Source: Halobacillus litoralis
GTDB lineage: Bacteria; Bacillota; Bacilli; Bacillales; Halobacillaceae
Length of the DNA stretch: 64,000 nucleotides
Reading direction: 5' to 3'
NCBI RefSeq assembly: GCF_020524085.2
Contig: NZ_CP129016.1
Location: 3,032,001-3,096,000, forward strand
The number at the start of each line of letters is the position of its first letter. The first letter of the stretch is position 1. Shown here one piece after another: positions 15,293-62,563 of the stretch. The notes beneath the pieces are model-generated. The model was not told the origin of the DNA. It made no database searches and was given only the letters and a program-made list of their open reading frames with translations. Made by a program: the position numbers and the translations under genes.

Positions 15293-15880
15293 TACAAAAT
15301 TCCACTTTTTTACGAGAGTATTACAAACACCCCAAAGGAACCTGGGACAATTTCCTTACTTTTTGGCTTTTGTTTCCATGTGTCGAAAACTTTCCCATAA
15401 TGAACATTATTACATAACTTTTTGTCGAATAGTGAATATATTATGGATATTTTTAAAACACGACATAAGATAGTGAAAATAGGTTAAATCTGTTAAAAAA
15501 ACACTCTGTTACATGCATGGATTGGTTACTAGTCATTATAATAAATGACAGGATTGTGGAAGCATGAATGTCGAGGGGGGGCCTTTTAGCTTAACGGCAG
15601 AGGAAAAAGGTTTTCTTACCACATGGACTTATACGAGTTGTGGTGGTTCGATGTTGGCACAAATATGCCGAATATAATCGAACTTCCTTTATCCTTTTGA
15701 GCCTACTCAGCCTTTATCCTGTAAGGTCTCAGCTTTCCAGGGTCCCCAGAGGAGTTAAAGCCCCTTTGCCATATGAGGTTCTCAAACTCCCCTGCAAACT
15801 CATTCATCAAGTCCGTCTAAAAACAAAATACGTGAGGGAAGTAGAATTAAAAAATCCTCACAGAAAATAAATTTAAACGT
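15293..15880. other. Intergenic region between codY and flgB, no convincing gene
   Basis: The stretch is AT-rich near flgB and more mixed toward codY. Short open frames on the plus strand (a 25-codon frame from 15623 and a 76-codon GTG frame from 15640) have no good ribosome binding site and no family I recognise. A tRNA-like 5' motif (AGCTTAACGGCAGAG) lies near 15587, but no matching acceptor stem or T-arm follows. I see no repeat element of the type found in the other gaps. Confidence 0.5.
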
Positions 15881-18684: not shown

Positions 18685-19581
18685 TCACCTCTTATTCGCT
18701 CGGGGATGACTGTTCATATAAACATTTTTTAACCGATCTTTTGATACGTGTGTATAGATCTGAGTTGAAGAGAGTCGTTCATGCCCTAACAATTCTTGTA
18801 CTGAGCGCAAATCTGCTCCTTCGTTTAGCAGATGGGTAGCAAATGAATGCCTCAATTTATGGGGATGAATATCGACTGTCATTGCTGCCTTTTCCACCAT
18901 CTTTTTCAATATGAGCCTGATTCCATCAGCTGTTAGGGGCCCACCTTTAGCATTCAAAAACAATCGTTTACTCGATTCATTTTTCTTAGAAGCCAATTGT
19001 TTTCTGCCATCATTTATATATGTCTGAAGTGCTTTTGCAGCAAACTGCCCGTAAGGAACGTAACGATCTTTACTTCCTTTCCCATGAACAAGTGCTGTGT
19101 TCAATGAAAAAGGTCAGGGAGTTCCATTTTCACGCATTCACTAACACGTACACCCGTTCCATAGAGAAGTTCGATAAGAGCCTGGTTTCTCTGTCCTAAA
19201 AGGCGTATGCAAATCACTCACTGTGAAAATTTTCTCCAACTCTTCTTCATAAAAGAAGTTGGGAATAGGACTTTCCTTCTTTGGCAATACCACATTCAAA
19301 AATGGGTTTTGAACGACAATTTCTTCTCGTTCCAAGAAACGGAAATAGCTTCTCAAACTTGATATTTTTCTGGAAACTGTCCTTCTTGAGTACTGCGCTT
19401 CATATTGCTTAGATAAAAAGATTCGGATGACAGGATATTCACATTCCAGAATCGTTAATCCTTCTGATGTGAGAAAGGATTCAAATTCTTCTAAATCCCT
19501 TCCGTAGTGTTTTAATGTAAGAGGCGAAGCGTTTTTCTCAATTTGAAGGTATTCCATAAAAAGCTCTTTGTAAGACTGCAT
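18685..19581 (-). pseudogene. xerC: Tyrosine recombinase XerC (CodV), broken by two frameshifts
   Basis: XerC, with XerD, resolves chromosome dimers at dif. The N-terminal SAM-like domain (from 19581, MQSYKELFMEYLQIEKNAS) is intact to about LHTP. An extra base in the A4 run at 19198-19201 then breaks the frame. The shifted frame still encodes QALIELLYGTGVRVSECVKMELPDL. A second indel in the A5 run at 19107-19111 moves it again into NTALVHGKGSKDRYVPYG. The C-terminal part keeps HKLRHSFATHLL and LGHERLSSTQIYTH with the catalytic Tyr. Total length fits the roughly 300-residue family. Both lesions are in homopolymers. Confidence 0.92.
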
Positions 19582-20170
19582 AATTCCTTCCACCTCTCAA
19601 AGGCGTCTAAATTTTATCACAACATTCATTGACATAACAATGCATTTAATAAAAATGTAACAAAATTCTGAATTGTTTCCAACTCTAATGAATCAAGTAT
19701 TTAAAGAAATCGTACTTTAGCAGGATCAAGTGTCAAGTATGTATACTTACCAAAGCGTAATTATAGCGCCCCACATTATTGCTGTCAATCAAAAAATAGC
19801 GTCCCTTTAAAACACAACACTCATTTACATAAACTCTCCCTATTATGGAAAATTCAGTGCCGAGATAAATAGCGAATGTTGACTCGTTAATTGTAGAGGA
19901 CTAAGAAATAAGGCTTTCCCCAAGAGGGATTGTTTTCTACTATTCCCATCTAATAAGCGTAAAGTTTACTATACCAAGCTATTTTAATCCAAAGACCTGA
20001 CGAGGATGTTTAGTACCCCGCTTTTATAAGATGGATACCCGTTGTAGTTTTAAGACACTTGTTTTGAACCATTTCCTTCAGCCCTCAAACTCATTCAAAC
20101 ATCTCGAAATCGCGGCTTCCGCAATCCTGCCTTGTCCTTTAGTCATGAATAACATCAGCGTTAAATAAAA
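19582..20170. other. Gap between xerC and topA where trmFO is expected
   Basis: In B. subtilis the tRNA methyltransferase gene trmFO (gid) lies between topA and xerC. Here there are about 640 nt with no coding sequence of any length resembling it. The left half is AT-rich with no recognisable signal; the right half holds a decayed copy of the interspersed repeat (19920-20131) and the topA terminator. Confidence 0.7.
19920..20131. repeat. Decayed copy (D) of the interspersed element family
   Basis: This region aligns by eye with the core and right end of copies A, B and C: a motif resembling TTCCACTATCCCA, then ATAAGCGTAAAG, CCAAGCT and AATCCAA, and a closing AATCGCGGCTTCCGCAATCCTGCC. The structured right-hand module found in the other copies is missing or unrecognisable. 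It looks like a deleted remnant. Confidence 0.6.
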
Positions 20171-25832: not shown

Positions 25833-26453
25833 GTTGATACTCAGGGGTGGCTGGGAAGCTACTCATCTAGCTCCATCGCCCGGACACTCGCGTCATAAGC
25901 CGAGCAGCAACGGAATAAAAAAACACATTCCTTTGCTGCTCGGCTTATGCCAGTCGTGTCTATCCGGGCGTTTCCGCATTTGAACACTTTCCTGTGGGGT
26001 GCGCCGAGCTTCCTCGCACTGCGTCCTGCGTGGATCCCGCCTATCTCCTTCTCCCACGGGAGTCTCGTACCTTCCCAACCACCCATTCGATGTAAGAGAG
26101 AAACGAACCCCTCTACCGCGAAGGTTTGTATTCCACGATCACTACAACTTATGTGTAAAGCGCACGACATCAAGATTTTAGGCTTTAAATGCTAGCTATG
26201 AATACAATTACTTAACCACTTTCCTTAAGTGTGGATACTGATTATCCCAATAATGATCCGAGAACCTTTTATGGCAAAGGGCGGAGGGGAATGACGAGAC
26301 TCCTGCGGGAATAGAGTGCTTGGTGAGACCCCGCAAGGCGTTAGCCTGAGGAGGCTCACCGCGCTCCCGCGGAAAGCGAGTTATTCACCGTAGCCCCAAT
26401 CCACTCAACAAAAGCTTCGAAATCGAGCCTTCCACTATCCTGCTATATTCTTC
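25833..26453. repeat. Interspersed element copy A, two inverted modules, interrupted
   Basis: The element has a left module (about 25842-26084) starting CAGGGGTGGCTGGGAAGC and ending GTACCTTCCCAACCACCC. A core (GAGAAACGAACCCCTCTACC at 26098-26117) and a right module (about 26276-26397) follow, ending ATCCTGC near 26453. The right module folds as an outer stem closing on a branched interior. It has helix GGTGAG/CTCACC (26322-26327 with 26355-26360) capped by AGGC-GTTA-GCCT (26336-26347). The left module, read on the minus strand, is a homologous unit but carries a roughly 120-nt insertion near its outer end. Confidence 0.85.
25877..25970. repeat. Small palindromic element nested inside repeat copy A
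   Basis: A 23-nt arm at 25894-25916 (CATAAGCCGAGCAGCAA then CGGAAT) is complementary to 25927-25949 with one mismatch and a 10-nt loop. Outside it CGCCCGG (25877) pairs with CCGGGCG (ending 25970), with a looser middle. It splits the left module of copy A at the point corresponding to GGGAAGC-ACTC/CTTTCCTGTGGGG in copy B. Its size and shape suggest a miniature mobile or extragenic palindromic element. Confidence 0.75.
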
Positions 26454-26461
26454 AAGGAAAA

Positions 26462-31660: not shown

Positions 31661-31747
31661 GATTTTCACTCCTTTTTAACTAATGCTCTTGTCTTCTAAG
31701 AGGCAGCGGAACATCGTTTTCCACTTAAACCGTACGTTTAAGCACAA
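31661..31747 (-). ncRNA. Candidate ribosomal L19 leader RNA
   Basis: The 5' untranslated region of rplS contains GTGCTTAAACGTACGGTTTAAG, which can form a stem. It also has GTGGAAAACGATGTTCCGCTGCC, with GTGGAA/TTCCGC complementarity. It resembles, from memory, the L19 leader family of Firmicutes, in which L19 may bind its own message. I could not run a covariance model. Confidence 0.45.
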
Positions 31748-40777: not shown

Positions 40778-40960
40778 ATTCATCCTCCTGTATTTTCACA
40801 AATCTTTCATTCACTCAACTTATATATTTTATCATAAAGAAAGCCCCTACGGTAGGAACCGAGAGCTACTTTTATAACACCATGGTAAATCTCCTTGTTC
40901 CATAAAAGCTCCCTTTTCTTGAAGACTCGATTTCTAGATGCTTTTGGGTTTCGTTGCCGA

Positions 40961-41461
40961 GGTTGAGCGTCAGGGGTGGCTGGGAAGCAACTCGCTTTCC
41001 TGTGGGGGAGTGGCGAGCTTCCTCGGGCTAACGCCCTGCGGGATCTCGCCGATCTCCTTTCTCCCACGGGAGTCTCGCAGCTTCCCAACCACCCCATTCG
41101 ATATAGGTGAGAAACGAACCCCTCTACCAAGAAGGAGGGCTCCCATTATCCCCTCCCAAGCAGGACCAAAGAGCTTTGTATCAATCATTTACGCTCTAAA
41201 TCCCCGCTGGCGAGAGTTAATATCATCCACTTCCCACAATCATATAAGCTGATTTTTCCAGTAGCAGTTTCGAGAATCTTCCTTGGTAAAGGGGCGGAGG
41301 GGAATGGCGAGACTCCTGCGGAAAAAAGTGCATGGTGAGACCCACAGGACGCAGTCCGAGGAGGCTCACCGCGCTCCCGCGGAAAGCGAGCTATTCCCCA
41401 TAGCCCCGATTCACTCAACAAAAGCCTAGCAATCGTGTCTTCCACAATCCTGCCATTCACT
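40961..41461. repeat. Interspersed element copy B, two inverted modules, best preserved
   Basis: The left module (40971-41096) begins CAGGGGTGGCTGGGAAGC and ends GCTTCCCAACCACCCC. A core with GAGAAACGAACCCCTCTACC lies at about 41110-41127, and the right module is at 41291-41407. The right module has outer pairs GGGGC/GCCCC (41291-41295 with 41403-41407) and GGGGAAT/ATTCCCC (41299-41305 with 41393-41399). Inside is helix GGTGAG/CTCACC (41334-41339 with 41365-41370) capped by GGAC-GCA-GTCC (41347-41357). The left module, on the minus strand, has a 16-bp outer stem with one G-T pair, helix GGCGAG/CTCGCC and cap GGGC-GTTA-GCCC. Confidence 0.87.
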
Positions 41462-41559
41462 TTAACAAACTATAATATTAATGAAGGGTTTCAAAATTCG
41501 GCAAAGTCCTTTATCATATGTAATAGCCTAGATAACGAGCCTTGAAGGAGGATTCATTT

Positions 41560-52078: not shown

Positions 52079-52455
52079 AATCTCCCCCCCATTCTATGAA
52101 GGTGAGAAACGAACCCCTTTACCCAATTGGGTTGTCTTCCACTATCCCACTTATAAAAGCATAAAGCGCTCTGTATCAAGCTCTCAGAATCCAAATACCT
52201 AGGCATGAGAGTTCTAACCTTATAATCCTATTAAACTGAATCACTTCATATTCTAGAAGTAGTTTAAAGACACTCATATGGCCAAGGGGCGGAGGGAAAC
52301 GGTGAGACTCCTATGGGACGTGTGGGACAGGTGAAACTCCACAGGACGAAGTCCGAGGAGGCTCACCGCCCGCCCCATGGAAAGCGAACGGTTTCCCGGA
52401 GCCCCTAAACACATACAAACATCTTGAAACAGATTCTTACACAATCCTGCCATTT
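52079..52455. repeat. Interspersed element copy C, right module only
   Basis: The left module is reduced to its inner edge (CCCCATTCTATGAAGGTGAG), followed by the core GAGAAACGAACCCCTTTACC and the CACTATCCCAC-type spacer. The right module (52286-52405) is complete, with outer stems GGGGC/GCCCC (52286-52290 with 52401-52405) and GGGAAAC/GTTTCCC (52294-52300 with 52391-52397). Helix GGTGA/TCACC (52330-52334 with 52363-52367) is capped by GGAC-GAA-GTCC (52344-52354). It ends with AATCCTGCC like the other copies. Confidence 0.85.
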
Positions 52456-52490
52456 AGCTTAATAACACAATAATGGATAGAAAATCACCT

Positions 52491-62160: not shown

Positions 62161-62185
62161 TACGAATAAACGTATACTACATTCT

Positions 62186-62290
62186 CCTTATCTTCTCAAG
62201 CTCTAACACTTGCTGGAATTGGCACAGTACCTGTATAGATCCGTTGCCGAGGCTTCAAAGGGCCAGTCCCTCCACCTCTCTAGATAAGAA
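62186..62290 (-). promoter_or_regulatory. SAM riboswitch (S-box) controlling the cys operon
   Basis: On the minus strand the sequence has the S-box elements in order: P1 strand CTTATC, AGAGAGGTGGAGGGACTGGCCC, the GAAGCC..CGGCAAC junction, GGTACTGTGCCAATTCC with AGCA, and the returning P1 strand GATAAGG. With the terminator downstream this is a transcriptional off-switch: SAM abundance stops the sulfate assimilation genes. Confidence 0.96.
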
Positions 62291-62432: not shown

Positions 62433-62461
62433 AAGAATTATTCTTCAATTACACATACAAT

Positions 62462-62556
62462 CCTTATGAAGAGTCGGGGGAGGAAACTGGTCTGAAGATC
62501 CCGCAGCAACCTGAAAAAGGTGCTCATTCCAGCAGCCAAAAGGCTGAAAGATAAGG
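62462..62556 (+). promoter_or_regulatory. SAM riboswitch (S-box) controlling the TauE/SafE gene
   Basis: The S-box order is present: P1 CCTTAT, GAAGAGTCGGGGGAGGAAACTGG (in parts), TCTGAAGATCCCGCAGCAACC, AAAGGTGCTCATTCCAGCAG, CCAAAAGGCTGAAAG and the P1 return ATAAGG. It diverges somewhat from the cysH copy, so it is not a recent duplicate. Confidence 0.93.
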
Positions 62557-62563
62557 TGTGGTT

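Follow-up and report, generated by a model that had tools for sequence, protein, structure and literature searches.

Structured repeats of Halobacillus as probable non-coding cassettes of an integron-like recombination system

The window analysed in this work is a stretch of 64,000 nucleotides of the Halobacillus litoralis chromosome (contig NZ_CP129016.1, positions 3,032,001 to 3,096,000). Upstream of mfd it includes copy B of an interspersed element, whose two modules are mutually inverted; the mfd genes closest to that of the window, with 95–97% identity, belong to Halobacillus. The initial annotation had described four copies, A to D, sharing one module. This description holds for copies A, B, and C, in which the quoted helices are present in the sequence, although copy C has only the right module, its left rod not being found by profile; in copy D (19920–20131) the profiles detected no module, only two weak ends. 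On the left side of copy A there is no end A above the profile threshold. An insertion of some 120 nt, predicted to fold into a long hairpin (−62.4 kcal/mol over 130 nt), interrupts the left rod of this copy, and arms like those of this hairpin are also found in the stretches L166, L175, and L210. The coordinates of all these features are collected in Table 1, together with one remnant absent from the initial annotation. Elsewhere, the window contains a divergent pair of SAM riboswitches as well as an L19 leader.

Table 1. Element copies and other features of the 64-kb window, with positions counted from its first nucleotide.
Feature	Position	Strand	Score or remark
Copy B, whole element	about 40892 to 41468		extends beyond 40961–41461
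Copy B, end A: outer arm, spacer GCTCCC, inner arm, core	40892–40940	+	profile endA, 40.9 bits
Copy B, left rod, conserved reading outward	40973–41095	−	profile lm, 134.2 bits; fold z −4.4
Copy B, variable centre	41096–41290	.	changed or inverted in 4/5 close relatives having the element
Copy B, right rod, outward reading	41291–41407	+	profile rm, 117.9 bits; fold z −6.3
Copy B, end B: core, inner arm, spacer CCTGCC (+ strand), outer arm	41435–41468	−	profile endB, 26.5 bits
Copy A, left rod, split by insertion (25866–25984)	25844–26084	−	profile lm, 9.1 + 67.0 bits
Copy A, right rod	26279–26397	+	profile rm, 112.7 bits
Copy A, end B	26417–26458	−	profile endB, 30.6 bits
Copy C, right rod	52287–52405	+	profile rm, 67.4 bits
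Copy C, end B	52418–52466	−	profile endB, 36.4 bits
Copy D, end A, degenerate	19823–19866	+	profile endA, 21.4 bits
Copy D, end B, degenerate	20098–20141	−	profile endB, 25.8 bits
Further remnant, end B and rod piece	15531–15755	.	endB 15.4, rm 13.9 bits
Split XerC-like tyrosine recombinase	18685–19593	−	ORFs 18685–19104 and 19141–19593
SAM riboswitch	62185–62290	−	
SAM riboswitch	62461–62557	+	
L19 leader	31680–31717	−	

The complete element has about 570 bp and is composed of two outward-reading rods between unlike inverted ends, named A and B. Its anatomy was established in 486 kb of stretches chosen round copies, which contained 104 elements with two paired ends. The ends were paired as A/B in 103 of them, as B/B in one, and as A/A in none; 76 elements presented two rods, 15 presented one, and 13 had none above the score used, with a median length of 568 bp. 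The rods read outward in all 76 two-rod elements, and the orientation of the interior relative to the ends was divided 47 to 27 among the 74 clear cases. Each end is formed by an inner arm, a 6-bp spacer, and an AT-rich outer arm. An 18-nt core (GAAGACTCAGTTTCGAGA) is common to ends A and B and lies on the inner side, while the tips are unlike, GCTCCC in end A and GGCAGG in end B; 34 of the 162 end matches fit neither tip exactly. None of the 104 elements is located within a spanning ORF of at least 150 aa, and the copies are 75–97% identical. The flanks of 12 recent copies, inspected by eye, revealed no constant target duplication. A preference for sites behind genes was considered and dropped, since the flanking gene ends of 84 classified elements were 81 3′ ends and 87 5′ ends.

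A Halobacillus genome carries about 100 copies of the element. The genome of the window is far richer than the four copies first described, with at least 150 modules and 212 end cores. All 150 scored candidates were module matches, a number that is a lower bound, as these were scored from 1432 candidates in all; the end cores were counted with up to two mismatches, and the reversed control pattern gave a single match. Modules were found in 35 of 41 genomes, including all 22 of the genus, all three from the rest of the family, and 10 of the 16 from other families of the order. The named records bearing modules are from Ornithinibacillus, Oceanobacillus, Paucisalibacillus, and Pontibacillus, and modules are also present on plasmids of Priestia, Peribacillus, and Niallia. 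In the other families, several of the copies inspected are single rods with GTTGATT...AATCAAC ends. Phage records presented neither module nor site matches. A search of Rfam 15 showed no family at gathering score for the element, the three matches in the window all falling outside the copies, and under a lax threshold the copies in stretches L001 to L006 gave only below-threshold matches inside them. No description of the element or of the system proposed below was recognised among the openly licensed papers listed by motif-letter and topic searches.

The modules share a fold. A rod of 42 pairs is common to 12 modules of the window's genome, and for 19 of its pairs at least one sequence has both partners changed. 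Internal loops interrupt this rod, and model R1 has no branch points, unlike the branched fold that had been described. Six of six modules folded one by one were more stable than all 200 shuffles, with z from −4.4 to −7.2. For the fold test, the structure derived from the 12 modules was transferred to 48 modules (47 of them from other genomes) that had been aligned by sequence only, and 40 of the 42 pairs could be mapped. In this alignment pairing cells amounted to 86.8%, against 38.2–47.5% when one side was slid by one to three columns; cells changed on both sides were 382, against 120 in shuffles; and the covariation score was 0.519, against at most 0.127 in the slid controls. The weak helix consists of four pairs beside the inner stem, which are 57% paired. 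A structure-blind scan returned 22 column pairs above the Watson-Crick covariation threshold, 19 of them belonging to the fold. The stretches GACTCC, GGAAAGCGA, and GAGGAGGCT remain near-invariant while the helices change.

The paired changes in helices noticed in the initial annotation are far above the controls, and selection on the fold is strongly supported, also by sequences outside the genome that gave the structure. Given an unbranched fold and a copy D that lacks the module, the earlier observation as a whole is only partly confirmed. Its proposal of a fold selected, or needed for propagation, in RNA or single-stranded DNA was right as to selection and overlooked the putative larger mobile unit with its cassette-related ends.

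As the loops are kept while the helices covary, the rods probably act in folded form, either as RNA or as single-stranded DNA. Regarding the strand, G-U departures from Watson-Crick pairing exceeded A-C departures by 41 to 17 in the structure-blind pairs and by 57 to 36 (p 0.04) in the pairs of the given structure, in both cases among sequences that are not independent; because of this relatedness, the excess is a weak sign only that the modelled strand is the one that folds. The same counts on RNAalifold pairs were set aside, since these pairs lean to G-U by construction. The rods reach families where the strict site described below was not found, so that they are likely to be older than their link with A/B-type sites.

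These data also bear on whether the rods are structured non-coding RNAs with a cellular role, spread together with the ends and with mobility as a secondary matter, a reading that would be compatible with the element being a cassette. We regard it as a real but minor possibility: near-invariant loops with covarying helices across families, the G-U excess, and the single rods lacking A/B ends in other genera agree with such a role, whereas the presence of at least 150 modules in one genome, the lack of an Rfam match at gathering score, and the promoter-like sites in copy B (none found, 0.5 expected) do not.

At locus B, an element with the same kind of ends is present in five close relatives. 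The interior is inverted in L209 and L210, where the end cores mark the breaks in the alignment; L206 and L207 have another centre between flanks that are 91–93% identical; and L208 is co-linear, with 90% identity. Six more distant Halobacillus have no element at this locus and are too diverged for the junction to be placed. Inverted sites would explain the inversion of the interior, and shared sites would explain its replacement. Homologous recombination between copies would be another possible source of such inversions and swaps, and drift alone would leave a locus such as that of L208, the unchanged one of the five.

The ends of the element resemble a site of about 45 bp located 3′ of small genes in Halobacillus cassette arrays, which consists of TATCTcGAAnTCnAGTCTTnnAnnAAcGGGGGC followed by a less conserved right arm. 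The strict pattern of this site occurs in 24 of the 41 genomes, all from the family of the window's genome, and presents a strand bias (35 vs 0 in G008 and 29 vs 3 in G011); these are not counts of arrays alone, because with one mismatch the pattern also catches A ends of the element, as in G001. Ten array regions from five genomes were studied, picked for clusters of the same motif that was later profiled, and in these 167 of 186 site matches are on the majority strand, with a median site spacing of 717 bp in arrays. A same-strand ORF lies at most 120 nt before 88 of the 134 clear-core sites, compared with 12 for the other strand and 16% for random places. The cassette products include acetyltransferases, phosphotransferases, and other small enzymes, and a phosphotransferase gene bounded by sites recurs in the window's genome and in G011. 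The arrays have 38 segments in common. In both sequences, a core marks the start of 14 of these, the end of 18, and both limits of nine; 500 shifted controls gave at most two starts, three ends, and one of both. On plasmids of four genera, a same-strand gene is found at most 100 nt before the site in 4/4 records; one longer site consensus matched no plasmid, and another matched four records.

In the ten arrays, 12 of 17 inverted site matches score best as end B, and 16 of the 17 overlap a forward site or lie within 20 nt of it. The middle of these double sites reads GGGCAGG in five of seven and GAGCAGG in the other two. The double site resembles two fused halves, one of type A and one of type B, and such a junction is expected if A and B ends recombine. 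In many array sites (e.g., G011:C21:316688–316753) the right half is continued by a hairpin and T run resembling a terminator, so that such a site might also insulate one cassette from the next. A left-half hairpin was tried and dropped, its dyad not being compensatory (C..A 20, C..G 19, T..G 11, T..A 8).

Judged from this likeness of sequence and arrangement, the element looks like a gene-less mobile cassette, in which rods and site stand in place of gene and site, between inverted B and A sites. At E<0.01, the array-site profile recognises 81 of 103 A ends but only 50 of 105 B ends, and the latter count speaks against this reading.

MITEs and other small interspersed repeats of Bacillales are short, non-coding, intergenic, present in many copies, and foldable, as is the element studied here. 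It might then be an ordinary non-autonomous transposon of this type, moved by some transposase not seen in this analysis, with interiors inverted and exchanged by homologous recombination or template switching among about 100 copies and with array genes that merely share the end sequence; its size, intergenic position, copy number, and level of identity conform to that, and its long imperfect inverted modules could pair. We consider this unlikely, since the interior breaks coincide with end cores, the A/B rule is followed by 103 of 104 paired elements, the ends are homologous to array sites, and these sites bound segments shared between arrays. Unlike MITEs, moreover, the element has two unlike ends, which have the core in common and differ at their tips; its interior is subject to inversion or replacement while the ends stay in place, and these ends are related to the sites of gene cassettes.

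For the cassette proposed here, a candidate enzyme is found at three Halobacillus loci (G010, G008, and G002). In each, a 280-aa Xer-like tyrosine recombinase lies 79–101 bp ahead of an array-opening double site and reads into the array, and GGGCAGG is found between two inverted inner arms in 3/3; the link of recombinase and array comes from these three loci and a few plasmids. The proteins of G010 and G008 are 84% identical, the best models of the three are XerA, XerC, and XerD, and the G010 protein aligns with Escherichia coli XerD over most of its length. The recombinase was reached with a Peribacillus plasmid integrase as query; this integrase, beside a site and with relatives on 102 plasmid records, was itself discarded as the candidate.

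The 280-aa protein has 1721 homologues, of which the 120 listed are 67–100% identical. Those named among the matches listed include Halobacillus, Lysinibacillus, and the Bacillus cereus group, which we take to be Bacillaceae and close kin. Five of eight plasmid records bearing a homologue were inspected for sites. Sites of the form TTCAACTAA-spacer-TTAGTTGAA surround the homologue on plasmids of Sporosarcina, 'Arthrobacter citreus' NEB 577, Metabacillus, and Niallia, with low scores of 7–26 bits, and a Peribacillus simplex plasmid has only doubtful ones; a profile-free repeat search recovered the site families in the two regions examined. The plasmid labelled Arthrobacter citreus NEB 577 (L341, CP053689.1) has Bacillaceae-type sites and a recombinase sharing 61.8% identity with that of Halobacillus, and the label of this plasmid may be wrong. 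Its repeat families D2 and D3 include at least two spacer types (CTGCC and GCATCA) in one array, and the spacer type may set which sites recombine. Related proteins of 285 aa in G002 and G021 (L338, 7433–8287, and L337, 5036–5893, both on the − strand) are found in phage-like neighbourhoods, with no array sites near them.

In the window's genome, the integrase-family search returned only XerD, a split XerC-like protein, and a fragment of 73–76 aa, and no recombinase of the 280-aa type; XerD and the fragment are 28% and 26% identical to the 280-aa protein, respectively. The gene of the split XerC-like protein adjoins copy D, and its split is either a real break or a sequencing error. No recombinase was seen beside the three arrays of this genome (G000) or beside both double sites of the inspected G007 stretch. 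Therefore, the many copies in the window's genome need earlier or foreign activity, or Xer.

The pdif (dif) modules of Acinetobacter, which are moved by XerC/XerD, also lie between inverted short sites made of two arms and a short spacer. That the host Xer pair recombines the Halobacillus sites in the same way, with the 280-aa protein as a bystander, is improbable in spite of the two inverted arms round a 6–8-bp spacer and of a window genome having XerD and an XerC-like protein without the 280-aa recombinase, because the array sites are not dif-like in this genome (12.9 of 28 matches to its dif, 13.3 for shuffled dif, and 82 of 100 shuffles as high) and the dedicated 280-aa recombinase stands at the array start in all three loci inspected.

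The arrays share several features with integrons, as they are composed of small genes, mostly in one orientation, with a recombination-type site after each (167/186 and 88/134, as given above), and a tyrosine recombinase lies beside a special, primary site at the array start in the 3/3 Halobacillus loci inspected. The arrays of the window's genome, with no integrase nearby, are similar to CALIN. On the other hand, the Halobacillus recombinase reads into the array and is below the cut-off of the IntI model: the three proteins reach 95.6, 102.5, and 97.5 bits with TIGR02249, whose cut-off is 265 and which no protein of the 22 genomes passes. The model NF040815, with Xer recombinase and integron integrase in its title, is passed by two of the three and also by the XerD of the window's genome (248.6). 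The array sites lack the R boxes of attC, since in 134 of them GTTRRRY occurs in 10, RYYYAAC in five, and both in none. A further difference from integrons is that about 100 non-coding units are scattered over the chromosome. The recombinase looks like a kind of its own, of which no description was recognised among the openly licensed papers listed. According to the IntegronFinder 2.0 report, integrons are rare in Firmicutes, with one complete integron and few CALIN in its set (PMC9024848).

Then, on the basis of these sequence comparisons, we propose that the element is probably one of the non-coding cassettes of a site-specific recombination system that would operate in the manner of integrons in Bacillaceae and close kin. 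The 280-aa recombinase would act on A- and B-type sites; between direct sites it would exchange gene cassettes, and between the inverted ends A and B it would invert or swap the rod-bearing interior. The elements of the window's genome would be left from earlier activity or would depend on activity in trans. The action of the rods as folded RNA or single-stranded DNA would be the least certain step.

The wider proposal, to which we give an even chance, is that Bacillaceae and kin may own an integron-like system in which a cassette recombinase of 280 aa, derived from Xer, is combined with primary sites of the double type, mobile genes arrayed with a non-attC site, and about 100 chromosomal non-coding cassettes, each with a pair of conserved folded rods (RNA or single-stranded DNA) and an interior inverted or exchanged in place. 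If true, such a second system of cassette capture would alter the current picture of gene exchange in these bacteria, and would provide a testable origin for a structured repeat present in 35 of 41 genomes.
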